A stretch of 64,000 bases of DNA, taken from NCBI RefSeq assembly GCF_000001735.4, contig NC_003074.8, forward strand, positions 11,532,101 through 11,596,100, in the 5' to 3' direction. Every line of letters starts with the position of its first letter. Position 1 is the first letter of the stretch. This document shows, in pieces, positions 8,670-63,265 of the stretch. The notes below the pieces were generated by a model that saw nothing but the letters and a program-made list of their open reading frames with translations, was not told where the DNA came from and did no database searches. The translations under genes and the position numbers were made by a program. The stretch comes from Arabidopsis thaliana. Its lineage: Eukaryota; Streptophyta; Magnoliopsida; Brassicales; Brassicaceae.

Positions 8670-9184
8670 TCAATTGTCAAATCCATTACTAAATAAAGAA
8701 AGGAAAACAATCATCTCACATCTCTTCAAAGAGACCCCAATCTCATCCCTCCTCGCTGACATAGAAAAGCTATTGTTCTTGTAAAGAGACATAACATCAG
8801 TATTAACTGGTCTTCCCCACCCAAAATCCGCCCCATATATCCCAAACTGGTTCGACCCGGTAACAGTCAATACTTTTGTACCAACCTTCATGTTTTTAGT
8901 TCCTTCCTCGTACACCTCCCAAACTGACTCAAGACTTCGTGAACCCAAACCTTTGACCGAATCACTTAAAATCTCAACACCGTTGACGAATCCATCTTCT
9001 CCCAAAAAGGTCGTCGCTTCATATCCATTAAAATCAATTGGTAAAACACAATTCCCAAAATATGTTAAAGGAACCGGTGGATCTAACCGGTTTCTAAAAT
9101 CAGCAGCATAAATAAACCGAATCGGTCTATCCACACTGCCCCATGCGCCTTAATCACACAAGTCAACACATAAGTGTACGTGAC

Positions 9185-9908
9185 GAATGATCATTTCTTG
9201 TGTCCTTTTTTGGGACAACTAATCTGCAAAACCACTTTAGAGTCTTCATATCCCCTTTGAGTTAATGATTTGTGTTAAGACGAATTTATCCCTGTAATTT
9301 ATTTTGAATGAATAATTAGAATAATTAATAGAAAACATTTTGAAAAAAAAAAAAACGGAAAAAGAAAAAAAAAAAGCTCGAGCACGAGCTCGACTTCTTC
9401 TTCGGGATTCTTCCTCCGGCGAGCTCCGGCAAGCTCCGGCGAGCCGCATTGTCGTTTTTCTCCTCCTGCAAGCTGCATCAATCTACTAAGTCCAGGTATG
9501 AAGAGAGCTTCAAAAGCTTTGAATTACATATTTTGAGGATTTTGAGATTCAATCCAATTAGATTTGGGTTATTGTGTTTTAGCACCTATATTAGAAGTTT
9601 AAGTATAGATTTAGGCTTCATTTGGTCTGTTAATGGGTAAGCAATTGATTTCACATGCTGATTCATACTAAATTGAACTCAAATCGAATATTTGTTCTTG
9701 TCGCGAAAATAATACTGGTCGAACTAGCTATAGTAGTACCGTAATTTATATAGATAGTATGTTTTAATAGCACCAATATTACTTAAACACGTAGTATTTC
9801 ATATATGTAATAGTATTACTCACACATGTAATATTTCAGAATTAGTACTAGTATTACTGTAAATGTACTAGAATCGGTAATACTAGTAATATTGACTGAG
9901 TATGTGTA
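9185..9908. other. Left terminal and leader region of the VANDAL element
   Basis: This 0.72-kb noncoding region contains the left terminus and the probable promoter of the transposase gene. It ends in a cluster of AGTATTAC motifs just before the transposase start (annotated separately). A G/A-rich stretch lies at 9340-9440. Confidence 0.6.
9811..9885. promoter_or_regulatory. Cluster of YAGTATTAY motifs ahead of the transposase
   Basis: Exact matches: TAGTATTAC at 9811-9819 and 9849-9857, and the complement GTAATACTA at 9877-9885. Several one-mismatch relatives (gtagtattt, ctagtaata, gtaatattt) lie between 9709 and 9895. I recall YAGTATTAY as the motif bound by VANC21 in A. thaliana VANDAL21; binding here is inferred. 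Confidence 0.6.
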
Positions 9909-10355
9909 TTGTTTTGGCAGGTTACAATGAAAGAGAACATGATCATATATTTTAAATTCCAAGGTCGCATGTATAATGTGATGATGAAGAGATTAAGGGA
10001 GAAGATTACTCTCTCAGTGTTAGAAGATAGGATAATGACGAAGCTTGGATTAGATGCAAATAAGGTAAAATTGCATATGAGGTACAATCCACGGTTGTTC
10101 GGAGTAGAGGAAGAAATGAACGTTTGTGATGATGAGGATGTCTTTGTTTATGTAACATCCGCAAAAAATAATCGGAGAAGTGTTTTGGTTGTGGAGGAGA
10201 TCTCTAAACCGCCCGAGCCGGGGCAATTGCCCGAGCAATTGTCTAGAGTTGGTAAAAGTTCTGTTGGTAAGAACTATACGGAGTTGAATTCAGAGGAGGA
10301 TGAAATGAGAGTGGATGATGGTGCACTCATCGTCTTATTAGAAGAGGAACAAGGA

Positions 10356-10472
10356 ACTCAACATCAACTTGAGGCAATAGTGGAGGATCACGGGACTCAA
10401 TATTAACTTGAGGCAATAGTGGAGGATCACGGAACTCAACATCAACTTGAGGCAATAGTGGAGGATCACGGG
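10356..10472 (+). repeat. 39-bp (13-codon) tandem repeat, three copies, in the transposase linker
   Basis: Three successive 39-bp units encode EAIVEDHGTQ-type peptides. They start at 10356, 10395 and 10434. One copy holds a stop (TATTAA where the others read CATCAA). The repeat is acidic and lies between the N-terminal domain and the zinc-binding region. Confidence 0.85.
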
Positions 10473-11137
10473 ACTCAAGAAGATGAAACACGCTATGATG
10501 AGTCTATGGATAATTCTGATAGGGGGGAACAGTATGTTGAGTCGCCACCTGCTGTAGAACCGGGTATGTTTAAAAAAGAATGGGAAGACGGAATTGGGTT
10601 GACCTTACGTCAAGAATTTCCAAACAAGGCGGCATTGCACGAGGTGGTGGATTGAGCTGCATTTGCTAACAGTTTTGGTTATGTGATTAAGAAGTCGGAT
10701 AAGGAGCGCTATGTCCTAAAGTGTGCCAAAGAGAGCTGTTCTTGGCGTTTACGAGCGTCCAATATCAGTAATACTGATATATTCTCGATTAGAAGGTACA
10801 ATAAGATGCATAGTTGCACTCGGCTAAGTAAAGGTAGTAGTAGGCTCAGGAAAAAAAACGCAACCCACAATTAGTCGCAGCTCTCCTTCATGATCATTTT
10901 CCGGGATAGTTGGAAACTCCGGTTCCAAGAATTATCATGGAGCTAGTTCAGACGAAGTTAGGTGTGAAAGTATCATACTCGACAGCGCTAAGGGGGAAAT
11001 ATCATGCGATTTATGATTTAAAAGGTACCCCGGAAGAAAGCTACAAGGATATCAATTGTTATTTATACATGTTGAAGAAGGTAAATGATGGTACAGTTAC
11101 TTATCTGAAATTGGATGAGAATGATAAATTTCAGTAC

Positions 11138-11269
11138 GTATTTGTAGCTTTGGGAGCTAGCATTGAAGGTTTTAGAGTGATGAGGAAAGTTTTAATTGTG
11201 GACGTATTCGTAGCTTTGGGAGCTAGCATTGAAGGTTTTAGAGTGATGAGGAAAGTTTTAATTGTGGAT
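11138..11269 (+). repeat. 66-bp in-frame duplication at the transposase catalytic core
   Basis: Bases 11138-11203 and 11204-11269 are identical but for one transition. The duplication repeats 22 codons (VFVALGASIEGFRVMRKV...), so the strand leading to the first catalytic Asp is present twice. Near-identity means the duplication is recent. Confidence 0.92.
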
Positions 11270-12360
11270 GCAACACATTTGAAGAACGGATATGGCGGAG
11301 TGCTAGTGTTTGCCTCGGCTCAAGATCCTAACCGTCACCATTACATCATAACGTTTGCCGTACTCGACAGTGAGAATGATGCTAGTTGGGAGTGGTTTTT
11401 CGAGAAGCTAAAAACGGTTGTACCCGATACTTAAGAATTGGTTTTCATGACGGATAGAAATGCAAGCCTCATAAAGGCCATACGGAACGTGTATACCGCG
11501 GCTCATCACGGGTATTGTATTTGGCATTTGTCCCAAAATGTGAAAGGTCATGTTACTCACACCAACCGAGACGTACTCGCATGGAAGTTTCAGGAGTTAA
11601 GTCGGGTCTACGTCGTGGCGGACTTCAACCGAGCGTATGACGGGTTTAAGTTGAGATATCCTAAGGCGACCAAGTATTTGGAGGATACAACCGTGAAAGA
11701 AAAATGGACAAGGTGTTGTTTTCCCGGAGAAAGATACAACTTAGACACAAGCAATTGTGTGGAATCTTTGAACAATGTGTTTAAAAACGCAAGGAAATAC
11801 TCGTTAATACCAATGCTTGATGCGATCATCAAAAAAATCTCCGTTTGGTTTAATGAACATCGGATGGAAGCCGCGTCTGGATCTTTAGAAAATAAGATGG
11901 TGCCTTTGGTCGAGAATTATTTGCATGATTTGTGGGTTTTTGCCGAGAATATGTAGTCACATGCGACAAAGGAATAGATTATACGGTGAGCTTGCTTTTG
12001 AAAACTTGCAGTTGCAAGGTTTTCGATATCCAAAAATATCCTTGTATTCATGCATTAGCCGCTTTCATTAACATTATGGATGATGAAGATCGGAGAAGAG
12101 GTTTGGAGTTACATGATTTGGTTACAAAATATTATTGGGCGGAGTTGTGGGTATTGGCCTATTATAGGACTATTTATCTTGTTCCGGATAGGTCGCAGTG
12201 GGAAATACCAGATGAAGTAAAGGCGTTGAAGATAGTTCCGCTGTCTAAAAAACCGAAGAAAGGAAGGAAAAATATGCTAAGGTTTCCATCAACCGGGGAA
12301 AAGCAGCCAAAACGACAAAGGACGCAAAACAAAAGGCGTCCAAGGCAATCGTGTCAATGA

Positions 12361-13256
12361 TTATTATTTGGGAATACGCCTATCTGAGTTTTTTACTTTG
12401 TTTCTGCAGTGATTTGTTGTTTTTATGGTATGGACTTACTATGTAATACTGTATTTCCCCTTTCTGTAATACTATGTCTGTTTCTATTGTTTTTTTGTAA
12501 TATTGGTTATAACAAGTAATATCATGTCTGTTTCTGTCGAATTTGTGGTCATATTAGTACTACTGGTAATACTAAGTTGGTGTTATGGAGTTCGAATTTG
12601 TTTACCTCAAAACTCAATGAAAATGAATACAGTGAGTTATAAACAGATAAAAATGTATTATTAATCATTTATACTTAATTAAGTTAGAAATTTTAATATT
12701 AAATCGTTTTAACTTATTTTTAGTAGACTCAATACAACATATCCCTTATACTTTTAAGCTCACTTTTAATATTATCACCAACTTAAAATGAAAAATTCAC
12801 ATTGCTACATATATTTAATTTATAATTGCACAAAATATTTAAACCTCTATATTTATAAAGTTCAATCTAGTGTACTACTAAATAAACAAATTGTAAATAT
12901 AGGAAATACTGCTAAACATGAAAAACATGGAAAGTAATACTATTTGAGAAATTGGCACTACCAAAACCTTAGAAAATACTATGCTGTAAAAAGGCTGCGC
13001 ACATGTCAAAAATCTCCAAAAAACGGCGCACACGTGGGGAATTAATTTTTTTGGTTTTCCCCCAAAATTTTTGGCGCCTAACAAATTTTGAGATTCCCTC
13101 CAAAACCAAAAATTTCACTTTTTTCTTTTTCCTCTTTCTTTTTCGATCTTTTCTTACAACTTTCTTTCATCTCTCATCTCTCTTCTCCCACATCTCTCAT
13201 CTCTCTCTTCGACTCGAATTCTCTCACATCTCTCATCTTTCTTTCATCTTTCTACC
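12361..13256. promoter_or_regulatory. Intergenic region of the VANDAL element with AGTATTAC motifs
   Basis: This stretch separates the transposase from the GRF-zinc-finger gene. Complement-form motifs RTAATACTR occur exactly at 12443-12451, 12466-12474, 12566-12574 and 12934-12942, with near-matches around 12495-12520 and 12905. 13080-13256 is a T/C-rich leader ahead of the ATG at 13257. Confidence 0.65.
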
Positions 13257-13832
13257 ATGGATAGACTGTGTGAGAGAGACCCCTACTACGATGATATGAA
13301 AGTGGCGAAGAGAGCCATTGAGCAAATGGAAATGGTTGCGATGATGGAAGGGATTCCTAAGTTTTGTCCATGCGGTGGTAGCATTGTCGACACTCGAAAG
13401 GATGAAAAGAGATACTATCAATGCGAGAAGTTTAAGGTATGTTGATGTAGAGCACAAGTTTTTCAAGTTTGTGTAGATCTAGATCTAGATATATTTGGTA
13501 TTTCAGAGTATTTCCCGTTATGGTAATACTGCCTAGAACAAGTAATACTGCACAAGTTTTTCTAGGTTTTGTAGATCTAGATCTATATTTGATAAATATT
13601 TGGTACTTTGTAGGATGATAGAACTGATTGTATGCACATCCGTAAACTTTGGGATAAGGCTATGGAAGAAGAGGTGAGTAGCTTAAGGGAGAGTGTTGAT
13701 TACAATCGGAAGAAAGTTCTAAGTCATGAGTATCTCATAGAAGAAATGCAAAAAGAATTGAAAGCCCACCGTGCAGAGATTGTGAACGTGAGCAAAGTGT
13801 TATTCCGTAATCCTATGGCTCCAAAGAAGTAA
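13257..13832 (+). CDS. Small GRF-type zinc-finger protein of the VANDAL element (VANB position)
   Basis: Two exons, 13257-13436 and 13614-13832, join in frame through a GTATGT...TAG intron and give 132 residues with no defect. The N-terminal half has the GRF-like pattern: IPKFCPCGGSIVDTRK, YYQCEKF, then CMHIRKLWDKAMEEEV after the junction. The rest is a predicted coiled coil (SLRESVDYNRKKVLS... EEMQKELKAH). It resembles small Arabidopsis proteins annotated as GRF zinc-finger (At4g04775 type). Its place between transposase and DUF1985 gene corresponds to the second VANDAL gene; its role is unknown to me. The intron carries two exact motif copies (13523, 13542). It could bind nucleic acid; this is family inference. 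Confidence 0.78.
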
Positions 13833-13965
13833 TGTGTTATCCTATTGTTCCTTAATCTTATTGTTAATTTGCTTGTAAGACTTTCCCTATGCTTTGTAAG
13901 ACTTTCTGTATGCTTTGTAAGACTTTCCCTTCGATTGTAAGACTTCTCTTTGATTGGTAATACTA
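13523..13965. promoter_or_regulatory. YAGTATTAY motifs in the intron and downstream of the GRF-zinc-finger gene
   Basis: Complement-form exact matches: GTAATACTG at 13523-13531 and 13542-13550 (inside the intron) and GTAATACTA at 13957-13965 (between the two converging genes). Related words (ggtatttcccg, ggtattac) continue to about 14350. Confidence 0.6.
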
Positions 13966-14169
13966 TGGTTGTTCAGTTTGATATTTCCAGTATATCTCTT
14001 AGTAGTAATAGCACGAGGTATTTCCCGTATTTCAGTTAACAATATCATAAAACATCCTAATACATTAATTGAATACAAACATAGTTTTACGAGTACTTGC
14101 GAAATCCTAAAACAAAGTCAAAGTACAAGAAATCAAAATACAAATCCGGAGAAGTTACACGAATAGTTT

Positions 14170-16966
14170 TCACACGTTACTAGACTTTGCACGGGTTGAA
14201 CGGGTCACTCGTTTGGGCACAACAGGAGCAGCCGCATTTTCCTTAATTGTTGATTCCTCCTCATCTGGTGGGTTCTGAGACATCTACATTGTTAATTTAG
14301 TTAAACCTTGGTATTACGCGATATTACCAATTATGGAACAGTATATCCGGTATTACCCAGATTTACCTTGGCTTTCATCTCATCCATAAATGCTTCGAAC
14401 GTTGCTTGTTTTTCCTCTATTTCCATAAGCACCAACAAAGCTTCATTCAGCTTATCATTGATGGAATGGAGCTTCTCCATTACATCAACTAACGTCGGGT
14501 CTCCCGGTCCAACAGCTGTGGGAACTTCCTCTTCATTTGGGGCTTCCATTCGTGCCTGCACATCCTCGTTGTACACCTCCTCAAATCTAATTTCACGCCC
14601 TTGACCAAGACGCTTCATCCAACTATCAACTACAACATCGTGCTTATCAACATCATCCTCTACTCCCGTGATTTCAGCCAAAAGAGGTACTTCTTCAGCC
14701 TTCTCTCTAATTATACTCTCAATGACCTATGGAAATAATAGACAATGAAATATTAGAAAGAAATAAAATCATATTTGCTCAAGGAATAATAGGAAATACT
14801 AACCTCAGTTGTTCCGAGTACATGGTTGATTTGCTCAAGGGTAAATCCTTTCATCTCGATCCTCTTGAAATTCACCTTGCACATCCTTTGACAACCGGCA
14901 TGTGCACCCTCTTTTTCTTCTATGAATCTTTCCCTAAGTGATGGAATGGCTTCAAATGCTAAAAACTACACAAACCACATGAAATTTAATTGTTAGCTTC
15001 AATTACGAAAATGTAACAAGGATAAAACATGTGACTTACCTCAAGCGGCACACAGAATCCGGGAACAGGCCATGGTGACTGAGTGTTCGGGACGACACCG
15101 TTAAAATGATCCAATTTGTGTGAGATCGATTTTAACATGTACTCAAATGAATATCTCCCCGATGGAAATATCTTACAAAACGTAAGATCACTTGCAGACC
15201 TCACACAGAAATCATCAATTGGACTAGCCCTTTCTCCGGTCTTAGTAGGCATGACAATGATGCTAGTTAGAAAATAGAGGGCCGCCATCCGCAACCTATC
15301 CTTTGATCTAGCCGGTTCCATCTCCATTAGCTTGGTTTTCACGTCTTCACGTCTAATTACCCCGGTTTTGAAGTACCTGTTGGCGAAGTTCATATTACCA
15401 GCACTCTGATAACTAGCTGGATAGGCCTTGCAGTTGAAACCAGAGATCAAAGCATGCTCCCTAATACCATAGCGGATGGGAACTCCATTAACAACGAACC
15501 AAACCTCCTTCTTCTTCTCAATAGATGCCGTTCGAAGAAAAAGCATCCACATCCGCATTAACTTGTGGGTATATCCGGAAGGCAGGTGGTAGATGTGCTT
15601 GAAACTCGGATGCTCCATAAAATAATTCTTCTCAACATGCGTTAGAGGATGTTCCAAGTCAGCGAAGGTCTTCAACACCTCCGAGATATAACACCTCGTT
15701 GCTAACTTCATCTTCTTGGGATACTCCGACACCGGGAAGTACATACCAAGTGGCTGCATTGCCATCGCTTCCTCCATATCCTGAAAGAAACAAACATTCA
15801 TTCATATATCACTCAATTGTAAATAGTACTGCCACAGTATTACTCTGTATTTCCAAAAGTATTCCCCGAAATTACCAGTATTACACAAATCCTACTATTC
15901 ATATATCACTCAATTGTAAATAGTACTGCCACAGTATTACTCTGAATTTCTCAGAAGTATTCCCCGTAATTACCAGTATTACACAGATACTCCTATTTTA
16001 CTATGTAGTATTTCTCAAAGTTACTAGTACTAACTATCGATAAATCACAATTGTAGTATTACTCTAAGGTATTACCCACATCCGCCAATATTACCTAAAT
16101 ATCAACATAGCATTTCCCAATGTTACTAGTACTGTCCACAGTTCACAATTGCATTATTACCCAATTAGATCGGTATTACGAAATGGAATACTTACCACAT
16201 TTGCGATGTCCTCGTCTATGGTCCTCTCCTCCCCGGATTTTTCCACTATCACGTCCTCGTCTCTCTCGTCCTCGTGTCCCTCATCCTCCACGGACTTTTC
16301 CACATTGACGTCCTCGTCGCTCTCAGAGCTCCTCTCCTCCTCCTCCTCGATAACGGTTAGGCCGTCATCTTGTCTCTCCGCCTCTTCCACGGGATTAGCA
16401 CACGCGAGTTCTTTGTTTGTCTCCGTCTCCTCTGAATCGGAATCGGAGCCCAAGGTTCGGCTACTACTCCCTGATTCTTCTTCTTCACTTGCTTCTTCTT
16501 TTCATTTTCATCTTCCACCTCATCAGTTTGCATATTCTCTTGAATTTCTTCAGCAGGAATATGCTTCAGAGCATCATAAAACGTAGAATCATCAAGCATC
16601 GGGCTCTCCGTCGTTGGAGCCGTCGTTGGAGCCGTTGTCGTTGGAGCCGCTGTCGTTGGAGCCGCATTGGTTGCCATCGCCGTCGCAGTCGTTTGTGTTG
16701 GCGACTGCTCCTCAGCCGGCACTTTCTCTTTATCTTTCTTCGCCGGCGCCTGAACCTTCGCTTTCTTCGCCGGCGCCTGAACCTTCGCTTTCTTCGACGG
16801 CGCCTGAACCTTCGCTTTCTTCGCCGGCACCTTCTCCTTCACTTTCTCCGCCGGCGCCTTCCTTCACTTTCTCCGCCGGTGCCTTAACTTTCTCTGTCTT
16901 CGCCGGCGCCGACGCTTCTATCTCATTTCTTTTCCCTTGACCTCCTCCACGCGTCTTAGGCGGCAT
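14170..16966 (-). CDS. DUF1985 protein resembling VANC anti-silencing factor
   Basis: Exons on the minus strand: first exon to 16196, then 15040-15780, 14804-14965, 14367-14726 and 14170-14283. All four introns have GT-AG ends and keep phase. Starting at the internal ATG at 16453 (MGSDSDSEE) gives an uninterrupted protein of about 544 residues. The DUF1985 core (GVPIRYGIREHALISGFNC) is in the second exon; a coiled coil (LHSINDKLNEALLVLMEIEE) and a basic tail (KRVTRSTRAK) follow. Upstream, a start at 16966 would add a Lys/Ala/Pro repeat (KKAKVQAP units) and an acidic region, but two frame changes separate it. From memory, VANC proteins of VANDAL elements carry this domain, bind YAGTATTAY-type motifs in their own element and remove DNA methylation. 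That activity is inferred. Motif clusters lie in its introns. Confidence 0.75.
15835..16062. promoter_or_regulatory. Dense YAGTATTAY cluster in intron 1 of the DUF1985 gene
   Basis: Exact plus-strand matches: CAGTATTAC at 15835-15843, 15876-15884, 15932-15940 and 15974-15982, and TAGTATTAC at 16054-16062. The first four come from a roughly 97-bp tandem duplication (caattgtaaatagtactgcc recurs). Five sites in 228 bp is the densest cluster of the element. Confidence 0.7.
16730..16870 (-). repeat. Short tandem repeat encoding KKAKVQAP-type units
   Basis: About six imperfect units of 24-27 bp (gcgccggcgaagaaagcgaag on the minus strand) encode Lys/Ala/Pro-rich peptide at the N-terminal end of the DUF1985 gene. 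One unit is out of register, which breaks the frame from the 16966 start. Confidence 0.7.
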
Positions 16967-18199
16967 GACTGATTTCGAATCGGAAATAGAACGGAAATAC
17001 TGGTGAAAGGAAGAAGAACGATCGATTGAATTTAAAGAAATAGGGAATGTTGCGGTTAATTTCAGCGGTTACTAAGGAGAAGAAGAAGAAAAATCAAAAA
17101 CGGTTGTAATGAGAAAAAGAATGAAATTCGAATTGGGAAATCCCTGGAAATATTAGAGTTTTTCTTATTTGATTTTCAAATAAAGAGTAAAGGTGGTTCG
17201 GGTGGTTTGGTTCGGAAACGAACCATGATTTTTCTGGTAATTAATAGGTTCGGATGGGGATATACTAGTAATATCCATATATTTCGAATTAAAAAAAAAA
17301 AAAATTATTTCTGTTTTTTACAAGGATTTTTTGGCTTCCTCTTTGCAAAAAAGGGACTGGCCAGATGATTTTTCGTACGTGACTACAAACGTTGATAGAA
17401 GAAGATCGGACCAAGTTGACTCGTTCTTGGCTTGTTCTTTAAGTTTCTTGATGTTCGCTTCACTCAACTCGAGCGTGACCCGAACCACGTTGATGTTCTC
17501 TTTAGCGGGAGGCAGCATTAAATTTCTTGCATTGACTTTCTCCTTTGAGAGATATGGCAAGAGTTGAAAGAGTTTTGGTTCGAGTCCGGCCGGAACATTG
17601 ATGACCGTACGATCTAAAACCATAGGTAGATCAAAATCTTGTGGTATGTTCCCGTGTTTACATATATGAGCCCAAGCTTTGTAAAACTTGGACGCTGTTT
17701 TGCCGTCCATGACGACATGGTGAACTATGGTTCCAATGGAAAAGCCTTGGTTTGGGAAAAAAGTGATTTGTATAGACAGAATCGATGCTGAGTCAGAGGA
17801 AACTTGTAACTCGGGGACAAGAGGACGTAATTCAGCCTCCAGACGAAGTTCTTTGCTAGAGATATAAGAGAAGTCAGCTTCGGACTCGACCACTGTGAGA
17901 GAGACAGTGTCTTTGGGGAAGATGACTATGTGTGGTTTAGGATCTTGGGGGTTCCATTTGAGGTAACCGGATAGTGGGAGAAAGTGTGAGAGGAAGAGGG
18001 AGAGGGATTATTCGAGCTTGGGTTGGATCGAGGAGAAGAAGGAGTCACGAGATGACTCGGTGAGTTTGTAGAAGGTGACTCTCTCTGTGGGATAAAGTTT
18101 TAGCCAAAGTAAATCAAAGAAAGTGAGTGGAAGAACGAGTAGTTCGACTGAGTTAGTTGCAGGGCTCACTCGAGCGATCTAGATCACGTTTAAGGCCAT

Positions 18200-33042: not shown

Positions 33043-36000
33043 TTATACATCTTCATCTTCTACTTCATCTTCGTCCGAGGACGATAAATTACATCGGAAT
33101 TCGTCTTCTGGTTCAGCATCCCCGACATCGTAATTAAGGATTATTGGGTTTAAGTTGGCTACCGGAGTTTCAAGAACAGGATCTTCAATTATAGTGAGCA
33201 AAACATCATCATCATTTTCTGTTTGCAAAAGAGTTGGATCATTGTTTTCATATTCTCCAGAAATGTTTCCCCTCGGATTGACTTTTAGAACATTGAGCCA
33301 AATGTTCTTTGGTTTCTTCATATATGGATACGGAATATAACAAACTTGATCTGCTTGAGATCCTGTATACATATATCAAAGATAGATTATTAATAATTAA
33401 AAAAAAAACGTATTTTGGACTTAAGAATAATTACGTACCAAGAATAAATGGCTCGTATTTATTGTATTTCCTCGTAGATAGAATGTCTACAACGCCACTA
33501 TGGCTTCGTCGAGTGCCTCTCCCGATCTTTGGGTCATACCACTTACACTTAAAAAGTGTGATCCTCAAATTGACGATACCCTCATACTCGAGTTCTATAA
33601 TATCAGTTAAGATACCGTAGAAATCCGCTTCATCAGATGAATCAGCGTAATTTTCACCTTTAACACAGACCCCATAGTTACATGTCTTTCGTCCAGCGCC
33701 GTGATTTTGCGTATGAAACAAATATCCTCTTGTGAAATACATTGGCCAAGTTTTAACCTTGTTCAAAGGTCCTTGCACAATCTCTTGAACCCAAGTAGGA
33801 AATGGAGAAGTAGTGTTCCAGTATGTTACCTACATAATAGATAAACAATATCAATTAGTATATATTAAATGATCACCTTTCGAATGAACCAAAATTGATA
33901 TAGACTTACATATTCTTTAACCCATAAATGATATTCTTCCGCTCTTCTCGCGTAGAGTTCTTTTTTGGGCAAGCATGGATATTTGGCAGAAAGATAATCT
34001 TCGAACATACTATATTTACAAACGAGGAAAATTATCAAAGTGATCTTAGTAAAAATTTACAAACAACGAGTGATTAAAAATACCTCTCAAATGGTTTAAA
34101 ATAGTCACAATTTCTTAAAACATATGCATGTGCGCTTTGGTAGTCTTTCTCTGAAAGCCAATCTACATGCATTTCACCACTTGGACGGCCGACGTGCATA
34201 AATATATTAGGTACTCCAGGGACATGATATACAGGAACTTTACCTTCATTGAATCTTGTTAACCTGATCCATGTAAGTGAATTAATATCGAAGAATATCT
34301 AATCGTTAAATAATTAAATATATTTACCTTGATTTTGTTTGAATATGATCGGCAAAGTAGTGCTCTGAAAAATAAGCAATCTCGTCATTGATATATGACT
34401 CAACAATTGAACCTGCAGCATATCTTTTGTTCTTTGCTTTTCCTTTCAACTTTTTGAAAAACCTCTCGAATGGGTACATCCACCTATATTGGACTGGGCC
34501 ACCCAATTCAGCTTCGTATGGGAGATGGATAGGTAAGTGTTCCATAACATCAAAAAATGATGGTGGAAAGATCCTTTCCAAATTACAGATGATTAAAACT
34601 ATGTTCTGTTTGAGAATTTGAACGCGACTTGTCTGTAAAGTTCTCGAACATAGATCTCGGAAAAATGCTCCAATTCCTAAAATATATGTGCAAGTTAAAT
34701 GATTAGATTAAAAAAATGTTGGAAAAAAATATAGTAAGTATATATTGTACCTGATAGTGCAAGGTGGACATTCCGGTCAAGCAGTTCAGCAAAGATAAAT
34801 GGAAGTAGTCGCTCCATAAATACATGACAATCATGACTTTTCATGCCTGAAAACTTTTCATTATCCAGATCTATACAACTAGCCAAATCTGAAGAATAAC
34901 CATCTGGAAATCTAATATAATATTTCACACATTGTAATAAACTCTGTTTGGCTTCTTCTGTCAATGTATACGCTAGAAATGGAGCTTTGCCACTACTATC
35001 AATATGTAAGCCTGGGCGTGAACAAAATTTCTCAATATCCAATCTTGACATGATATTATCTTTTGATTTACCCTTAACTCTCATGAGAGTGTTCATGATG
35101 TTGTCAAGAAAATTCTTCTCTGTATGCATCACATCAATATTATGTCGAAGATTGAGGTCTTTCCAGTAAGACAACTCCCACAAGATGCTTTCCTTGTGCC
35201 AATTATGTTTCTTCCCATAGCCTCGCATCTTCTTTTCATGACCGTTCCCACCAACATCCTTCGTTTTTGGTGGATTTACACTAGCCAACCTCTCGTAATA
35301 AACTTGCTCCCCTGTCAAAGACTCAGGTGGATATTCGCTAGAAGCATCTCTTCCTTTCAGAAAGTCTTTTCTGTTCCTACGGGATGGATGACCATGAGGA
35401 AAAAATCTACGGTGACAATCAAACCAGCATGTCTTCCGTCCATTGGGTAGATAAAAAGACTTTGTACTTTCCATGCAAACAGGACAAGACAATTTACCAT
35501 GAGTAGTCCATCCTGATAACATGCTATACGCCGGAAAGTCGCTAATCGTCCACAGTAGTACTGCTTTTAGATTAAAATTCTGACTCAATGAAACATCGTA
35601 CGCATCGACTCCAGTAGACCACAACTCTTTTAACTCCTCAATAAGAGGTTGGAGGAAGACATCAAGACTAGCTCGAGGATGATTTGGACCAGAATTCAGA
35701 ATGGTAAGAAATAAGTACTCTGTATTCATGCACATACCAGGGGGTAAATTATAAAGAGTTAGGATCACAGGCCACAATGAATGATTACGAGACATGCCAA
35801 ATGGATTGAACCCATCAGTACACAACCCGAGATAAACGTTACGGGGTTCTTCCGCAAACTGGGGATGTAACCCTAGGAAATATCTCCACTCTGCTGCATC
35901 TGAAGGATGATTCATTTCTCCCTCCTTTGATTGGTGCTCAGCATGCCATCGCATTGCCGCTGCTGTCTTATGGCTCTGATACATTCTCTTCAACCGGTCC

Positions 36001-36887
36001 CCAATAGGTAGATACCACATACGACTATATGGTACTTTGGTTCTTCGACGGTCGTCCTTAGGCTTCCATCTTTTCGCACAACAAAATCGACATTGATCTT
36101 CTTTTTCGTCTTCTTTCCAAAATAGCATACAATTGTTCTGACAAACATCAATCGTATGATATGGAAGTCCTAAATTGCGCATTAACTTCTCGGTCTGGTA
36201 ATGTGAAGTGGTTGTCTGGTTTCCTTCTGGTAAAAAATCTGTAAACATTTCGCAAACGGAGTCCACCAACTTTTCACTCATATTATACTCCGCCTTGTTG
36301 TGCATGAGTCGAGATGCTAAGGATAATTGCGACTGCCCTTCACGACAACCATTGTACAAAGGATTATTTGCACCTTCTAACAAGTCGTAGAACTTATTTG
36401 AATGGTTACGGACCGGTTCTTCCACATTCTGATAACTATCATCATGACGATAGTTATCATCATACCCCACATTAAAATTAAATGCATCGTTCACCATATC
36501 CACATATGGATCTTCTACAATATTACCCACTTCTTCATGATTCTCACTAAAATAAGTCCTATTCGTGTAACTCGTTCCTATATCCATATTCATTTCTTCT
36601 CCATGCTTATACCAAACATAATAATCAGGCATAAATCCATGACTAAACAAATGACTACTAACTCTTCTACCCGAGATGATGTGTTTTTCATTCTTGCATA
36701 CACTACAAGGACAATGAAATTTACCTCGACTACTCTGTACTATTGGCTGACTATTAGCGAATGTCATGAATTGCTCAACTCCTGCGACGTATTCGGCTGA
36801 CAAATTCCCCGTCACTTCATCAAATCTCTTGTACATCCAATCTCGATAGAAACCGCCAGTACCGCCATAATTGTAGTTTCCCGCCAT
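33043..36887 (-). CDS. TNPD-like CACTA transposase (tnp2 family)
   Basis: Six exons: 34751-36887, 34328-34676, 34084-34263, 33910-34009, 33439-33829 and 33043-33362. They sum to 3477 bases, 1158 codons plus stop, all junctions GT-AG and in phase. The N-terminus has a Transpos_assoc region with paired Cys (CPCSVCKNEKHI). The tnp2 catalytic domain follows (NNCMLFWKEDEKEDQCRFC, GLCTDGFNPFGMSRNHSLWP, RHNIDVMHTEKNFLDNIMNT). DUF4218 (LPIHLPYEAELGGPVQYRWM) and DUF4216 (CVKGENYADSSDEADFYGIL) regions close it. The tail is acidic. No stop or frameshift was found. With the TNPA-like gene it makes this a candidate autonomous element. Confidence 0.9.
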
Positions 36888-36989
36888 TATACAATAAAGT
36901 AACTAATATTTTTTTTTCTCTTTGATGTTGTTGTTGTTTTGATTTGTTGGTGAAAGAAGAGTTGCGTGAACGTTTATTATATAGGCCAA

Positions 36990-38374: not shown

Positions 38375-41300
38375 ATGGAAAAGGCTTGGGTATGGCTTCC
38401 AAGGTATGAATTTTCTGGTTATCAATTAGCTAGTGTTTTATTTCAACTTTGTTTCTTCTTATTGATATTTTGCCTTGTTTATTTACATGAAGGGCTAGCA
38501 TTGAATATGAGAAAGGTGCTACCGTTTTTGTGAATGAATCAGCACAAAAATTGGGTAATCCTGAAGAATTATTGTGTCCATGCATTGACTGTCGGAATGT
38601 TTGCCATCATCTATTAGAAATCGTGTTAGAGCATCTGGTGATTAGAGGGATGGATGAGAAATATAAGATTAAGGCATGTTGGAATAACCATGGAGAGAGA
38701 AGGGAACATAACATGGCTAGTGTTGAATCTTCAGAGAATGATGCTTATGACTTGATTAGGACTGCATTTTTCAGTGGTGGAGAAAAGCAGCAAATTCAGA
38801 ATGACAATGATGCTTATGATGAAGAACTAAGCAAAGAAGAAGCTGAGTTTAGAGAGAAGTTATTGGAAGCTGAAACTCCTCTATACTTGACAAGTTCTAA
38901 GTATACCAAGGTGGTTGCAATAATGGCTCTCTATCGCATCAAGGTGAAAAGTGGTATGTCTGAAAACTATTTTGATCAGTTGCTTACAGTTGTTCACGAT
39001 ATGCTTCCTGTGGAGAATGTTCTTCCCAAGTCAACTGCTGAGATAAAGAAGTTCTTGAAGGTTTTCGGTTTTGGTTACGATATGATTCATGCCTGTAAGA
39101 ATGACTACATTCTTTATCGTAAGCAGTATGAGGAGTTAGTTAGCTGCCCGCGATGTAGTGCTTCACGATGGGAGAAGGATAACCACACAGGAGAAGAAAA
39201 TAAAGGGGTTCCAGCAGAAGTCTTAAGATATTTCCCTATCAAGGACAGATTCAAGAGACTTTTCAGATCGAAAAGGATTACTGAAGAGTTGCGGTGGCAT
39301 TCCAGCAATGGTAGTGTAGATGGGACAATGAGACACCCAGTTGACTCGCTCACTTGGGAAAAAGTGAAGGAGAAATGGCCTGAGTTTGATGGTGATCCTA
39401 GGAACCTTCGTTTATGCCTTTCTACAGATGGGATGAACCCATTCTCAATGCAGAATACTAAGTACAGTGTATGGCCAGTTATGTTAGTTAACTATAACAA
39501 GGCTCCTACCAAGTGTATGAAGTCAGAGAACATCATGTTGACCATGCTCATCCCTGGACCAACAGCCCCCAGTAACAACATCGACGTCTACTTACAACCT
39601 TTGGTAGATGATTTACTTGATCTGTGGAATGATGGTATTCAAGTTTATGACTCCTTTATGTAAGAGACTTTTACACTTAGAGCAATGTTACTTTGGACTA
39701 TCAGTGACTATCCGGCTTTAGGGACTCTCGCTGGTTGTAAGGTCAAAGGGAAACAAGCATGTAATGTCTGTGGTAAAGATACACCACATAGGTGGTTGAA
39801 GTTTAGTCGGAAACATGTTTACTTAGGCAATAGAAAGCGTCTCCGACCTGGGCATCCTTATAGACGTCGAAAAGCTTGGTTTAATAACACGGTTGAGAAT
39901 GGAACTACAAATAGAATTCATAGTGGAGTTGATATTCTAGAGACATTAAAGGACTTTCGCAATGATTTTGGGAGACCGCTGGATAAGAGAAGTAAGAGAA
40001 GCAGAACTGATTTGGATGAAGAGGGTGTTAATTCAGATGAAGAAGCAGAAGAAGATAGTGATAAGTGGCGTTGGAAGAAACGTTCTATCTTGTTTGACTT
40101 ACCATATTGGAAGGTTAGTGTGTCTTCTAAACTGTATTACAAGTATATGTAGTATGGATTTGTCTAACTTTGATTTTTTCATTGCTCAGGATATGCCTGT
40201 GAGACACAATATAGATGTGATGCATGTGGAAAAGAACATATCTGATGCAATGTTGTCAACTTTGATGCAAAGTGTTAAATCAAAAGACGGTTTGAAATCA
40301 CGAAAGGATTTAGAAGACATAGGGATTAGAAAACACTTATATGCAATCACACGTGGAAAGAGAACTTACCTGCCTCCTGCCGCTTATTGGCTATCAAAGT
40401 TAGAGAAGAAGTTGTTCTGCAATAGGTTAGCAAAATTTAGGGGTCCTGACGGATATTGTGCTAATATCTCAAACTGTGTATCAGTTGAGCCTCTTGGAAT
40501 TGGTGGGTTAAAATCACATGATCATCACGTCCTTATGCAGAATCTACTTTCAGTTGCTTTGAGAGGCTTGTTGCTCAGAGGACCTCGAGTTGTTGTCGCT
40601 CGTTTATGCTTTTACTTCAATAGATTATGTCAGCGTGTGATTGATCCAGAGAAAATACTAGCCTTAGAGTCTGAAGTTGTGGATACAATGTGTCAACTAG
40701 AACGGTTCTTTCCTCCTTCCATGTTTGACATAATGTTTCACCTGCCCATACATCTAGGGAGGGAAGCACGAATGGGTGGGCCAGTACATTTTCGCTCGAT
40801 GTACCCATTTGAGAGGTACTTCTACTTCTAACTCTCTAATTATGTGATATGTTGTTAGTTAGCTTTATTGAAATCTTCAGACTCTAAGGCTAGTATTTTC
40901 TCTTATGATGTAGGTACATGAAAAAATTGAAATCTTATGTTAAGAACTATGCAAGACCAGAAGCGTGTATTGCAGAGGGCTATTTGGCTGGAGAATGTGT
41001 TGCATTTTGCACAGAGTTCCTACGCAACTCGTTACCATATGAAGAATCAGTTAATCGCAATGAAGATATTGAGACAAATGAGAATGTGCTTGGAGGTCGT
41101 CCATTATATAAGGGTACAAATGTTACACTAATAGAGAAAGAAAGAGAGATAACACATCGATATGTTCTAATGAACATGGCTGTGACTGAACCTTATATTG
41201 AGTAAGAGCACTGAATCTCCTGTATATATCTTTATTCATCGAGTATGATCTTTACATTAAGTTTTGTCTTTTTTCAGTATGCATTTGGAAGAATTACAAG

Positions 41301-48862: not shown

Positions 48863-51800
48863 ATGGATCCGTCTCAGACATCATACGGGTTTAGCCAGAA
48901 CACCGGTCAGCTAGGATCTCCGGGTAACAACACTGGGTCACCTGGAAGAAGGTCAGATCTATCACAGTATGAAGGACAGAGCCCAGATGACTGGTTATTC
49001 AGAATGGAGAAGAGTTTTCTGCAGAACCAGACCTTGGAACATCAAAAGTTGGAGGTAGCTATAACGTGTTTAGTTTCGGTAACAGCTTTAAATTGGTTGA
49101 GAGGTGTGCTAATGAGAGGATTGTTCAAAGATTGTAATGATTTTAAGAAAAAAGTTCGAAAATGATTTGGACACAGTCGTTGCGGGTCTGTTGTGTGGCA
49201 GTTGTTGAACATCAGACAGAAAGGCTCAGTGGAGGAATTTAGAGAACGGTTTGAAGAATTAATAGTTGAGGTGCCACACATTACTAACGATCTTTTGGAA
49301 GGAATTTTCTTAAAGGGAATGAGGAAAAATATAAGAGACCAAGTGATGCGTACACGTCCCTCTAGCATATATGAGATTGTGGAGACAGCATGCCTCATAG
49401 AAGAGCAAGAGCAGGAGAAGACGTCTTTCCACTCAAATTACAACTCGAAATCCGTTAGTAGAACAAATTCAGCTCCGGTGCTTCATCGAAGCAACAACAA
49501 TAGCCCTATCAAGACACAGGATATCATTCAAGCTAGGAGGTCATTTGATGGGGTAAGAGATAACAGGAAACCGGATCAGAGGAACAACGCATGCTACACG
49601 TGTGGAGACCGCTATTTTCCAGGACACCGCTGTAAAAATCAGAAGCTCAAATGTTTGGAGTTGGTCGCAACAAGCGAGGCGGGACAGTTACTGGAGGAGG
49701 AAGACGAATCTGAGAGTGAAGAAGAACCGGAACCTAAGGTGGAAGGACAGACAATGATGCATCTTTCGTTGAGTTCAATGGCTGGCCTTACTAATGAAAA
49801 GTCTATGAGGATGAAAGGATGGATAGCAGGTCAGGAAGTGATCGTGTTGATTGATTCAGGAGCAACTAGTAACTTCATTTCTGAAGAAGTTGCTCAGCGG
49901 TGCTCACTAACAGTCACACCAACAAGTGATTTTGGAGTAGCAGTTGGTAATGGTCAGATTATTTCAGGACAAGGCAAAGTTAAGGATGTGCAGCTACACA
50001 TTCAAGGGGTGGATATTAAGGAGGAGTTTTTTCTGTTTGCTTTGGGAACCACAGATATAGTGCTGGGGTACTCGTGGTTAGCTACCTTGGGAGATACAAG
50101 GATCAATTGGGGGCGCCACACTCTGAAATTCAAGGTCAACGAAGAATGGGTGACACTAGTGGGAGACCCAGCCCTCTTGAGACAACAGATATCTCTTCAT
50201 GCATTGGAAAAAACAGTGAGAAAAGGTGACACATGAGGCGGAAGGAAACAACAGTTTGGGGGTTCAGAAACTTATCAAGGATTACAAGAAGGTTTTCCAG
50301 TTACCACAAAGGTTACCTCCATCAAGGAATAGAGAGCATTCCATCACCTTACAACTAGGAAGCTCACCGATCAAGGCTAGACCATATCGGTATTCATTCG
50401 CACAAAAGAATGAAATGGAGAAGTTGATCAGAGAGATGCTAGCAGCTGAGATAATCAGACCTAGTATCAGCCCATTCTCAAGTCCTGTACTATTGGTCAA
50501 GAAGAAAGACGGAGGCTGGAGATTTTGCGTGGACTACAGGGCATTGAGCAAGGCTACCGTTCCGGACTGATATCCAATCCCAGTGATCGAGGAACTGCTG
50601 GATGAGCTACACAGAGCCACGATGTTCTCCAAATTGGACCTTAAATCGGGGTACCATCAGATACGAATGAAGGCTGCAGATGTGGAGAAGACAGCTTTCT
50701 GTACTCATGAGGGTCATTACGAGTTCTTGGTCATGCCGTTTGATTTGACCAATGCACCGGCCACCTTTCAGTCAGTAATGAATGAGTTGTTTCGAACCTA
50801 CCTGCGTCAATTTGTTCTAGTGTTCTTTGACGACATTCTGGTTTATAGCTCAGACGAAGAGACCCACCTTAAACATCTAGAAGCGGTTCTCCAAATTCTA
50901 CTTCAGAATAAGTTATATGCCAATGAAAAGAAATGTCACTTTGGAAGCACCAGAATCTCTTACTTGGGTCACATGGTAACAGGGAAAGGTGTGTCTGCGG
51001 ATCCAGCTAAAATTGAAGCTATGGTGAACTGGCCTCAACCAAAGAACATAACTGAGCTGAGGGGGTTCCTGGGACACACTGACTACTACAGAAGGTTTGT
51101 AGCAGGTTATGGGAAGATAGCCAAACCCTTAACAGAATTGCTTAAAAAGGGTAAGTTTGAATGGTCTGAAGCAGCTAATAAAGCTTATGAGACACTTAAA
51201 GGAGCAGTTATCCAGTTGCCAACCTTAGCATTGCTAGACTTTGCAAAGCCTTTTGTGATTGAAACGGATGCTTCAGGGACGGGAATCGGGGTTGTGCTAT
51301 CACAAGATAAACGTCCCATAGCGTTTATTAGCCAGGGGTTCTCTAGTAAGGGCAGAATTAAGTCAGTTTACGAGAGAGAGCTGTTGGCCATTGTCTTTGT
51401 AGTGGACAAGTGGAAACACTATCTAGCAAGCAAGAAGGTGATTATAAGGACAGATCAGAGGAGTCTCAAACATCTGCTTAACCAGAAAGCTGTGTCAGCT
51501 ATACAGCAGAGATGGGCATCCAAACTTGTCAGTTTGGATTATGAAATTGAGTACAAACCAGGCGCAGAAAATCGTGTAGCAGACGCTTTGTCCCGACGTC
51601 CAGTCACAGAGCAGGTGATGAACATGTTGTTGCTGGCTCCAGCTACTCTGCACAAGATTGAATTACAAGATCAAGTACAAGGCGACCCTAGCCTCAACCT
51701 CATCAGAGAAAAGCTTTTAAGTGGACAAGAGTCTGAAAAAGGATACAGTTTGGTGGTTGGCACCTTACATAAAGATGGTAGGATAATGATTCCAACAAAT

Positions 51801-53190
51801 TCTCCTTTTATTCCAAAGTTGTTGGAAAGGTTCCACACTAGTCCCATTGGGGGTCATGAAGGGGTGCTCAAGACACTCAAGAGATTGGCGAGTGAAGTTT
51901 ATTGGAAGGGAATGAGGAGAGACGTGGTAGAGTTCCTCAGAGGCTGTCAAGTGTGTCAACAAAATAAGTACTCAACCTTGTCACCAGCGGGTCTTCTCAC
52001 ACCGCTACCCATTCCTACTAAGGTATGGTCGAACATTAGCCTTGATTTTATTGATGGGTTACCAAAGTCTGAAGGCTATGATGTGGTGTTAGTAGTGGTA
52101 GATAGGCTTAGTAATTATGATCACTTTGTACCGCTGAAGCATCCTTACACAGCCAAGTCTATAGCAGATATTTTCCTTCATGAAATAGTCAGACTTCATG
52201 GGTTTCCTGAGAGTATGGTCTCAGATAGGGATAAAATCTTTATCATCAATTTCTGGTCTTCTCTGTTCAAATCACACGGAACATCCCTGGATAAGAGTAC
52301 ATCATATCACCCTCAGACAGATGGCCATACAAAAGTTCTGAATCGTTGCTTAGAGACGTATATTCGTTGCTTTGTTAATGGGAAACCAAAGACTTGGGCT
52401 AAGTGGCTAATGTAGGCTGAATACTGGTATAACACATCGTTCCACTCTGCGATTAAGATGACTCCATTTCAGGCTCTGTATGGGAGAGAACCTCCCAAAC
52501 TCTTGCGATTCGGTGATGTACCCACTGCTAACGCCGGCGTTGAAGAGTTGCTGCAAGAAAGAGACTGACTGGTCACTATGCTGAGAGAGAATCTACAAGC
52601 AGCCCAAGCTCGAATGCAGAAGTCAGCTAACAAGCATAGAAGAGAATTGGAATTCTCAGTGGGAACTTGGGTCTATTTAAAACTCAGGCCGTATAGACAG
52701 CTTTCTGTAGCTCAACGACGTAATGAGAAGCTATCGCCAAGGTTCTTTGGTCCGTATAAGATTCTGGAACGCATAGGAGCAATGGCATATAAGCTGCAGC
52801 TACCAACTGAAAGTTCTATTCATCATGTGTTCCACATATCCCAACTGAGACAGGCGCTTCCAGGTTCAGCACAAGCTCAACCCCTTCGCGATTATGACTT
52901 CTAACTTGGAGTGGGCAACAGAACCAGAAGAGGTAATGGAGATCAGAGAGGGCAACACAACAGAAGATACTAAGCTCTTGATTAAGTGGAAGGGTATGCC
53001 AGAGTGTGAGAATACATGGGAACCAATGACGGGCATCACGCAACAATTTCCAGATTCTCACCTTGAGGACAAAGTGGCTTTGTTACGGGGGAGTATTGGT
53101 AAGGCAGCAACTCAAGCAATGGAGTCAGCAAGAGAAGTCAGAATTCCAAGGAAGAGAGTACCAAAGAAGGTTTATGATCCTAGTGGCTGA
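48863..53190 (+). mobile_element. Ty3 gag-pol fossil with chromodomain, nested in the previous element
   Basis: On the plus strand, opposite to the surrounding element, this fragment shows gag with a zinc knuckle (CYTCGDRYFPGHRC), aspartic protease (DSGATSNFI), reverse transcriptase (FFDDILVYS), RNase H, integrase with an HHCC-type zinc region, and a C-terminal chromodomain-like segment. It is thus a chromovirus-type Ty3 copy. It is broken in about half a dozen places and has no recognised 5' LTR. Confidence 0.82.
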
Positions 53191-57674: not shown

Positions 57675-59733
57675 CTACCGTATGATGTTCCTTAATCTGT
57701 ACGTTTGAGAAGATATACGTAGCATACGAATGATCTCTCTGTAAAACTCCCACGATTCGCTTACTTCCGTAATAGCTTCTTGCCCGAAAGGGTTTTTCTT
57801 GATGAAATCTTGAACGTTTTCCGCTTCTACCAACTTCTCAAGATGAAGTCTCAAATCACCACCATTACCTAGTTTACAATGAAGCAGAACAAAAATTGTG
57901 ATTCTTCATACTCACTTAATCGTTACCAAACCCCGCAAACTTGTAACTGAATTAGATGTTTACCTAAAGATGTATCTGTCTTGTTCTGATGATTGTATGA
58001 ATGAGGGAATATTGCTGTATATGGCTGTAACATTCAGATGGTTTATTCAAAACTTTAAAATATCGATGACGATAAGGTAAAAGAATTGTTGTATAAATGA
58101 CACGAGGAAGATGGGAAGACATCGCAAAATAGCTTACCGGGTTAAGCAAAGCCTTGTAAGGAGAATCGTCTAGCAAAACCGTGTTGGTTTCGTTGTAATC
58201 ACCCATTTTCCAAGGAAGTCTTGGATCGTGTTTCTCCCAAAGCCGGTTTAGATCCTTGAACACCACATATTTGTACCTATTTTCAAGCGAACCAACACTG
58301 GTTGTAGCACAATAAGACATGTCCTGCAAAAAGTAAATCCCCGAAAAATCGATATTTACTAGTTTCAAAAAAGGAAGAGTGCATGGCAAGAACCACCTTA
58401 CCCAACAAAACAACAGCTTACTCTTCAAATCACCAAGCAAGAACTCAGTGATTCTTACAACATTATTCCTGCAAGCAAACAAAACTTATATCGATTATTC
58501 ACACAGATATGGAAGTAACAATGATATGATCTTATATATAATAAGAGTAACGTCTTACTGTTTTCTCGATGACCAGATACCAACTTCAAACTTGTCAAAG
58601 CAGAATCTCAAAAACTCATCACAAAAAGGTCTCTTGAAAACTGTCATAACCAAAAAAAAATGCAAACTAATATAAGTAACAATGTGGTCTCACAAATAAC
58701 AATGAACAAAAAGAAACTTACTTGCTCTTCTTCCAATATTAATATCCGCTGGAACATCCTTGAGAGGAGTAACTATATCAGCAAGCAACCCATTAAGATC
58801 AAGAACAAGAAGTTTTTTCCTTAACACCAATGAATTTACCCCGCTGATTCCACCAAAAACAACACAAGAATCGTTGTTCTCTACCACTGAAACTTCATCA
58901 CTACTCATAACAGCCGATATAACCGAACCTTCTTCATTCTTTTCTATGGTTTCATCACCCGAAACAACACAAGAATCGTTGTTCTTTACCACTGGAACTT
59001 CATCATTACTCGTAACAGCCGATATAACAGAACCTTCTTTATTCTTTTCTATCGTTTCCTCACCCGAAACAACACAAGAATCGTTGTTCTTTACCACTGG
59101 AACTTCATCACTACTCGTAACAGCCAATATAACACAACCTTCTTCGTTCTTTTCTACGGTTTCATCACCCGAAACAACACAAGAATCGTTGTTCTTTACC
59201 ACTGGAACTTCATCATTACTCGTAACAGCCGATATAACAGAACCTTCTTTATTCTTTTCTATCGTTTCCTCACCCGAAACAACACAAGAATCGTTGTTCT
59301 TTACCACTGGAACTTCATCACTACTCGTAACAGCCAATATAACACAACCTTCTTCGTTCTTTTCTACGGTTTCATCACCCGAAACAACACAAGAATCGTT
59401 GTTCTTTACCACTGGAACTTCATCACTACTCGTAACAGCCGATATAACAGAACCTTCTTCCTTCTTTTCTACGTTTTCGTCACCCGAAACAACATGTTTT
59501 CGATCAACCAAGCTCGATACCGAAACTTCTTCTTTCTTTCTCTCATTAGATTCAACGTCAACACAAGTCTCTTTCTTATCTTCCATATCTAACAAACAAA
59601 CTTCTTCATTCCCTTTAACCACGGTTTCGTTTAGCGGCAACATTGAAACCTCGTGACAATTTTCGACCTTATCAATCAATTTAGCTTTCTTAATCAGAGG
59701 TTCCTCTTCAACAGAATGTTCAATTGCTCTCAT
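57675..59733 (-). CDS. HAD-superfamily (NIF/FCP1-like) protein with six 35-residue repeats
   Basis: Six exons: 58722-59733, 58559-58640, 58402-58468, 58138-58323, 57964-58024 and 57675-57868. They sum to 1602 bases, 533 codons plus stop, every junction GT-AG and in phase. The N-terminal third is acidic with six 35-residue repeats (residues 83-292). The HAD domain follows: motif I LLVLDLNGLLAD (Asp312, with Asn at the position that is Asp in active FCP1-type phosphatases), later FEVGIWSSRK and the motif IV VLLDDSPYKALLNP. It resembles A. thaliana At3g29760. The Asn raises doubt about phosphatase activity, though it may be normal in this subfamily. It is the only complete intact host gene in the window. 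Confidence 0.9.
58858..59487 (-). repeat. 105-bp tandem repeat, six copies, coding
   Basis: Six units encode SGDETVEKNEEG...NNDSCVV variants of 35 residues. Units 2-3 and 4-5 are almost identical pairs (CVILAVTSSDEV with SVISAVTSNDEV), so a 210-bp dimer was duplicated last. All units keep the frame. Confidence 0.93.
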
Positions 59734-61326: not shown

Positions 61327-63265
61327 CAGTGGCGGAGCCAGAACAATGACTCACTGGGGTCAAAAAAAAATTAAACGAAACGATAAACTTTACTATAAAC
61401 ATAACAATGTCATTATAAATAAAAACTCTAAAGATGAACTCTACGTTCACTCATATCTTGGAATCGTTTTATCACCTATTCGTTTGTAACAGTGTTAAGT
61501 ACTTGCTTTTCAATAAAACAAACAAGACAATCACTTAAGAACACATCACCGATACGGTTACGCAATGTAGTCTTCACAAAATTCATCGCGGAAAAACATC
61601 TTTCGACAGTTGCCGTTGCAACAGGAAGAATCAAAGATAGCTTTAGAAGATGATATACCAAAGGATGTGAAAGATGCTTTCTTGTCTCTACCATCACACG
61701 AGCAAGATCACCAAGACGCTTTAAATCTGTAAACCTTTCATCGTTTTTCACATTATCAAGGTAGATCTCAAGTTGATGATCAAGAGATCTACGCTCCACA
61801 AAACTAAAGTCATCTGGATAAAACTAGGTCAATCTCACGAGCATGGACTTATCAAACTGACGAAAAGAATCTATCGGACTCAAAGATGACATGCAAATAA
61901 GTAGTTCAGAATTCAACTCATCAAAGCGGTCATTAAACTCTTGAAGTTGCATATCTAAGACAGTGTAGAAACAATCCACCTTATAGTGATGCAAGTTGGT
62001 TATACCGGTCTTTTTCCTTGGTCTTCTAGAATCAACAAATTCTTCCTCCATTTTAAGCATTCCAATGTTAGTTTTCTCGCTAAAAGAACTAACTTCAGCC
62101 ATAAAAGCATCCCATCCATCGTCTCTAACCTTTTGCAACTGACATTTAGTAGTTTTCACCAATGAAATAGCATTTAAGATATCTTGATCTTTTCTTTGCC
62201 AAGCCTTTGATAAGCTATCACTGAGTCCCATAACAAGCAACATCAACTCCAGATAGAAAACAAAATCAAAGGTGTGAAAATACTTGAGAATACCATATGC
62301 TTGTTGTCTTTTGGTGGTGTCGGTGCCTTCATCCTGGATATACTCGAGAACTATAACTATAGATGAAAACAACTCCTCAAGACGCAACAAAGTCTTATAA
62401 TGTGAACCCCAACGAGTATTTCCAGGTCTTTGAAGGGAAAGTTCTTGGTTCAACCTAGTTCCTGTCTTAATTTCACCATTGCTAATCTTTTCTTCCACTT
62501 TTTGCCGATCGATTTCCCGGATCTTATCTTTTCTTTTGCAAAAAGCTCCAACAACATTTAGCAAAACAGAAATCATATAAAAAAACTCTCCAACTTCAAC
62601 ATGTTTTTTTGCAACTGCCATGACAACCAATTGTAGTTGATGAGCGAAGCAATGCACATAATATGCAGAGCTATTTTCTTTCAAAATCAATGATCTCAGT
62701 CCATTGAACTTTCCTTTCATGTTGCTAGCTCCATCGTATCCCTTCCCTCTCAGCTTTTTCAAACTCAATCCATATTTAGCAAACAAAGAATCAATAGCAC
62801 TTTTCAGAGATAAAGAAGATGTCTCTTGCACATGAATAACACCAATAAATCTTTCTTTAACTACCCCATACTTATCAACGAAGCGAAAAACTACTGCCAT
62901 TTGCTCTTTATCTGAAGCATCAGCCGATTCATCTACAAGCAAGCCAAAGACATCATTATCCATTTCTTCAATAATAGATCTAGTTACCTCTTCTGAAAAG
63001 CAATGGACAATATCTTTTTGAATTGGTGGAGATGTCATCTGGTTATTTTTAGGAGCATTTTTCAACACAACTTTCTTTACAACTTCATTCTGACCAGCTA
63101 TATACTTCAAAAGCTCTAAAAAATTACCCTTATTTGTTGACTCTTCTGATTCATCATGACCACGAAATGGTAATCCTTGATGTAACAAGTGTCGAGAAAC
63201 ATCAATGGAAGCATTCAACCGGATTCGATAATCATTCTTCACAACATTGGTTTGCTTATGGAGAG
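61327..63265 (-). mobile_element. hAT element, copy 1, inserted in the rpoC1 fragment
   Basis: The left terminus CAGTGGCGGAGCCAGAA is a common plant hAT end. The preceding 8 bp are gccccagt. The element runs to 63265, where a second copy of the same family interrupts it; the rest lies beyond the window. It encodes a DUF4371/hAT transposase on the minus strand. Confidence 0.85.
61476..63265 (-). pseudogene. hAT transposase (DUF4371 plus hAT dimerisation domain), interrupted
   Basis: The minus-strand frame reads RIRLNASIDVSRHLLHQGLP, LLVDESADASDKEQMAVVFR (first catalytic Asp region), KGYDGASNMKGKFNGL, YYVHCFAHQLQLVVMAVAKK and PGNTRWGSHYKTLLRLEELF. It ends in the dimerisation motif LSLILPVATATVERCFSAMN. 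A single stop (TAG at 61824-61826, where the sister copy has Glu) splits it before FYPDDFSF. The N-terminal part is cut off at 63265 by copy 2. Such genes are often annotated in Arabidopsis as TTF-type zinc-finger proteins with a hAT dimerisation domain. Confidence 0.88.

Follow-up and report, generated by a model that had tools for sequence, protein, structure and literature searches.

A degenerate VANDAL21 copy with YAGTATTAY arrays on Arabidopsis thaliana chromosome 3, a probable target of VANC21 in trans

We analysed a 64-kb window (64,000 nucleotides, C3:11532101-11596100) of Arabidopsis thaliana chromosome 3 and detected an 8,190-bp element that, judged from its sequence, is a copy of the Mutator-like family VANDAL21. 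A copy on chromosome 2 (C2:10001480-10009652) matches the element along its full length in nucleotide comparison, and we take it, from its position, to be Hiun (AT2TE42810), an autonomous VANDAL21. The element (the window copy) contains remains of the three genes VANA, VANB and VANC and several groups of the motif YAGTATTAY, as follows (positions are those of the window; TSD, target-site duplication).

9185-17374, no strand: whole VANDAL21 copy (8,190 bp), delimited by its TSD and by homology to the chromosome-2 copy and others
9176-9184, no strand: left TSD, GTACGTGAC
17375-17383, no strand: right TSD, GTACGTGAC
9709-9885: four YAGTATTAY sites upstream of VANA (9709 minus, 9811 plus, 9849 plus, 9877 minus)
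9927-12360, plus: VANA transposase relic, interrupted by stops and frame changes that the chromosome-2 copy does not have
10768-10776, minus: coding YAGTATTAY site in VANA, which the chromosome-2 copy lacks
11136-11268, plus: 66-bp tandem duplication inside VANA
12443-12942, minus: four YAGTATTAY sites between VANA and VANB (12443, 12466, 12566, 12934)
13257-13436, plus: VANB exon 1, open
13523-13550, minus: two YAGTATTAY sites in the VANB intron
13614-13832, plus: VANB exon 2, open
13957-13965, minus: YAGTATTAY site between VANB and VANC
14170-14283, minus: VANC exon 5 with the stop codon, open
14367-14726, minus: VANC exon 4 with DUF287, open
14804-14965, minus: VANC exon 3, open
15040-15780, minus: VANC exon 2 with DUF1985, open
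15835-16062, plus: five YAGTATTAY sites in VANC intron 1 (15835, 15876, 15932, 15974, 16054)
16196-16966, minus: VANC exon 1, broken; against the chromosome-2 copy it carries a 25-bp insertion (about 16860) and lacks 1 bp (about 16490-16500)

The perfect 9-bp TSD abuts both ends and makes the boundaries exact, in agreement with the limits given by an original prediction made from the letters alone. Duplications of this length are typical of Mutator-like elements. The family proposed in that prediction, VANDAL21, also stands, given the homology to the chromosome-2 copy and to other long copies. The gene order VANA, VANB, VANC, a VANC with DUF1985 and DUF287, the nucleotide similarity to the presumed Hiun across the element, and dense noncoding YAGTATTAY in runs of one orientation are all as in VANDAL21, and DNA identity to the chromosome-2 copy is 95.7-98.6% over VANA, VANB and VANC exons 2-4. 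AT2TE42810 is named as VANDAL21, Hiun, in PMC10398659, and DUF1985 and DUF287 are the two VANC domains named in PMC5735166 (both papers are cited here for statements in their main texts). Nine long copies were compared, namely the window copy, the chromosome-2 copy and seven others; all copy counts are lower bounds.

The VANA pieces carry the Pfam domains Plant_all_beta, MULE, Transposase_mut and SWIM, the last three of which fit the MURA-like transposase that had been predicted. Relative to the chromosome-2 copy, where VANA stays open for 784 codons from the ATG, the gene has two frame changes and four stops by DNA alignment (five by tblastn) and is divided into six open pieces of at least 70 codons, so the window copy lacks the open transposase frame of an autonomous element. 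None of the eight other long copies showed the 66-bp duplication. The middle gene has two exons in a structure matching VANB of the chromosome-2 copy. A GRF-zinc-finger protein had been predicted for the element, and a search of the two VANB exons for zf-GRF, at E up to 1, was negative.

VANC of the chromosome-2 copy was modelled with five exons, 704 codons and GT-AG introns, and the exon-intron boundary at the end of its exon 1 is duplicated. In the window copy, exons 2-5 are open with splice sites kept, and exon 2 contains the expected DUF1985 domain (Pfam). Exon 1 runs in two frames, its middle part, including variable lysine/alanine repeats, being out of frame. Both indels are visible by eye in the sequences, and the 25-bp insertion resembles a tandem duplication. 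Because of these two changes the predicted frame from the ATG stops after 78 codons, and no open VANC frame runs across all exons, as it would in a functional VANC21. The original prediction overlooked the broken transposase and VANC frames and proposed a self-contained anti-silencing system; for the window copy, we reject such a system on account of the broken exon 1 and the broken transposase. It would still hold if the element made a functional, N-terminally shortened VANC with DUF1985 and DUF287, which we hold to be very improbable: the second codon of exon 2 is an ATG and the downstream exons and splice sites are intact, but an alternative promoter or start would be needed, the variable lysine/alanine repeats of exon 1 are out of frame, and variable tandem-repeat regions of VANC are speculated to set its specificity (PMC5735166). 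Damage to both VANA and VANC, in the form of stops, frame changes or missing exons, is also present in all seven further non-Hiun long copies. The mildest case for VANC (C5 at 13.96 Mb) shows a single stop, in exon 4, and its first 10 exon 1 residues are unmatched. Both genes are open in one of the nine long copies, Hiun.

The window contains 18 exact YAGTATTAY, 17 inside the element and one in the remaining 55,810 bases (Fisher P = 1e-14). Sixteen of the 17 are noncoding, in line with the at least fourteen predicted for the noncoding parts; the other is the site in VANA. Dinucleotide shuffles of the element alone (n = 2,000) gave 0.32 matches on average and never more than 4, and chance density was rejected. 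Whole-window shuffles (n = 100) gave a mean of 2.81 and a maximum of 11 against the 18 observed, and the 55,810 outside bases gave a mean of 2.9 in 200 shuffles. The inside-outside comparison suggested with the original prediction thus shows a far higher density inside. Genome-wide, 5,445 sites in 119.66 Mb correspond to 0.046 per kb, so that the element, with 2.08 per kb, has a 46-fold excess. The motif is not enriched in the genome as a whole, because the same pattern read backwards is commoner (6,841); the backwards pattern is absent from each of 12 stretches tested, the element included.

Sixteen of the 17 sites are C-type (YAGTATTAC) and one is YAGTATTAT. Orientation is mixed upstream of VANA; after VANA there are seven sites on the minus strand, and VANC intron 1 has five on the plus strand. 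The first four intron sites sit in a two-unit direct repeat (about 15800-15997) with a spacing of 97 bp. VANC21 sites have been described as mainly noncoding and often within evolving tandem repeats, and motif density was suggested to matter (PMC5735166). The eight other long copies have 11-18 YAGTATTAY each, mostly ending in C and in similar regions and orientations. The coding site at 10768-10776 is C-type in five of the nine long copies (including the window copy), T-type (ending in T) in one and absent in three (including Hiun).

Another word, GTATTTCC, is over-represented in the noncoding parts, with nine occurrences in the element against four in the 55.8 kb outside. It occurs 6-11 times in seven of the eight other long copies and once in the eighth, 1-2 times in each of five related loci that bear T-type sites, and not at all in five more distant loci (L055-L058 and L060). 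This word could represent a variant site or a site for another factor.

The relationships of VANC were assessed with the DUF1985 exon, which has 95% amino-acid identity to the chromosome-2 copy. Identity falls to 54-58% for six loci (L045, L046, L049-L052; 1-4 YAGTATTAT and 0-4 YAGTATTAC each), to 46% for L055 and L056, both without YAGTATTAY, and to 38-41% for L057-L066. In a tree of this exon (27 rows), a branch with 100/99 support separates the seven VANDAL21 rows from the rest, in a data set that leaves out three of 30 loci for short matches (L048, L053, L054) and contains no Ulp1-type rows; the bootstrap is not quite settled, and the VANDAL21 row L047 has a long branch. An Ulp1 (C48) peptidase domain was detected neither in exon 2 (E up to 0.001) nor in exons 3 and 4 and the last part of exon 1 (E up to 1). 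The proposal that the DUF1985 protein is VANC-like is therefore supported by the 95% identity, the VANDAL21 grouping and the lack of an Ulp1 domain in the scanned exons, which speak in part for its separation from Ulp1-type proteins as well.

The six loci with 54-58% identity share a related VANC and YAGTATTAY sites with the window copy, but in the 3.7-3.8 kb surrounding the exon they have 1-4 YAGTATTAT and the window copy none. They are probably the VANDAL21_2 of PMC5735166. Twelve loci (L057-L068) have no YAGTATTAY, and nine of these (L057-L059, L061-L066) hold 4-8 AGTTGTMC. L057, with 41% exon identity, is presumably VANC6 (AT4G09370) by its position. VANDAL6 with VANC6 resembles the window copy in its DUF1985 VANC gene and in having targets in noncoding repeats, but differs in its motif, AGTTGTMC (PMC5735166). 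DUF1985-like exons also occur in other elements of the genome, which speaks for assigning the element to a different VANDAL family (VANDAL6-type, or the T-type subgroup of VANDAL21) or to the Ulp1-type Mutator-like elements. Against this are the 16 C-type sites of 17, the lack of YAGTATTAY in L057-L068, the low exon identities of these other groups, the absence of an Ulp1 domain from the scanned VANC exons, and the fact that no match closer than the 95% one was seen; we regard such an assignment as next to impossible.

According to PMC5735166 (2017), VANC21 binds YAGTATTAY in vivo and in vitro, by chromatin immunoprecipitation sequencing (ChIP-seq) and electrophoretic mobility shift assay (EMSA), and removes methylation from VANDAL21 copies, for which hypomethylation was shown. 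RNA-directed DNA methylation (RdDM) targets and re-methylates the noncoding regions of VANDAL21 (PMC10398659). The literature already covers the family, its gene, the motif and the joint occurrence of gene and motif, and the window copy is an ordinary family member; in the main texts of the two papers, where the terms AT3TE and AT3G do not occur, we saw no statement on it. The co-occurrence of gene and sites noted in the original prediction is the signature of this published anti-silencing family, with the reading corrected as follows for the window copy.

We are highly confident that the element is a degenerate, once autonomous VANDAL21 whose VANA and VANC are broken, whose YAGTATTAY arrays persist, and which is expected to be a target in trans of Hiun's VANC21. 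The ancestral element would have encoded the transposase (VANA), VANB and the anti-silencing VANC; VANA and VANC would have decayed, and the noncoding VANC21-binding arrays would have been retained. Intact VANC21, when expressed from Hiun on chromosome 2, would act in trans by binding these arrays and stripping the window copy of DNA methylation; alone, the window copy would stay silenced. The VANC of the window copy is predicted to be inactive from its exon 1 changes. Published VANC21 binding and demethylation, taken with the broken VANC, make the window copy most likely a target in trans only, and we infer that it would respond. Hiun has the same gene order, a VANC with DUF1985 and DUF287 and YAGTATTAY in matching regions (16 sites against 17). 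It differs in that the window copy has broken VANA and VANC, the 66-bp VANA duplication and the site in VANA coding sequence.

Several points weigh against this reading. The chromosome-2 copy is equated with Hiun by gene positions; frameshifts were judged against exons deduced from the chromosome-2 sequence, not from transcripts; and since VANC exons 2-5 are open, translation from an internal start could give a shorter protein. The window copy keeps 13 of 16 Hiun sites, which does not exceed a GC-matched noncoding background of 0.73 (P = 0.33). This last point would suit a motif run generated as a by-product when tandem repeats grew in AT-rich noncoding DNA, with no binding role here. Over the eight comparisons with Hiun the retention P values were 0.33 (window copy), 0.21, 0.40, 0.16, 0.0015, 0.22, 0.036 and 0.012, all nominal and from related copies, hence not independent; retention exceeds background at P < 0.05 in three of eight (0.0015, 0.012, 0.036), the window copy not being among them. 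These three comparisons speak against a by-product, as do a pyrimidine on both flanks of 17 of 17 AGTATTA cores in the element and the VANC21 binding shown for the motif (PMC5735166), and we give that explanation very little credence.

The degenerate, trans-responding VANDAL21 that we favour has sites without a working VANC and is therefore a natural target-only element, of a kind that can serve as a control to separate VANC effects in cis from those in trans. Broken VANDAL21 copies that, like this one, keep the binding arrays might also be trans modulators that titrate VANC21, or whose small RNAs or shortened VANC help the host to re-silence Hiun, although we think this unlikely.

The element sits within a BAHD acyltransferase gene on the minus strand (8670-9184 and 17375-18199), with the Pfam Transferase domain on both sides. 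The host gene is a pseudogene: its joined flanks show two stops close to the N-terminus and, shortly beyond the insertion site, a frameshift. Open BAHD relatives lie nearby at C3:11531977, 11528156, 11466385 and 11399445, so that the insertion lies within a BAHD cluster.

Elsewhere in the window, we found pieces of a tnp2-type transposase (Transposase_21, CACTA-like) at 34695-36902 (minus) and 38491-39663 (plus), and retrotransposon gag-protease and reverse transcriptase pieces at 49166-52415 (plus). A tandem array at 58857-59494 consists of 6.1 copies of a 105-bp unit with 93% matches and has long open frames on both strands. Finally, a 521-codon frame with DUF4371 was detected at 61824-63389 (minus), which we take to be probably a hAT-type transposase remnant.

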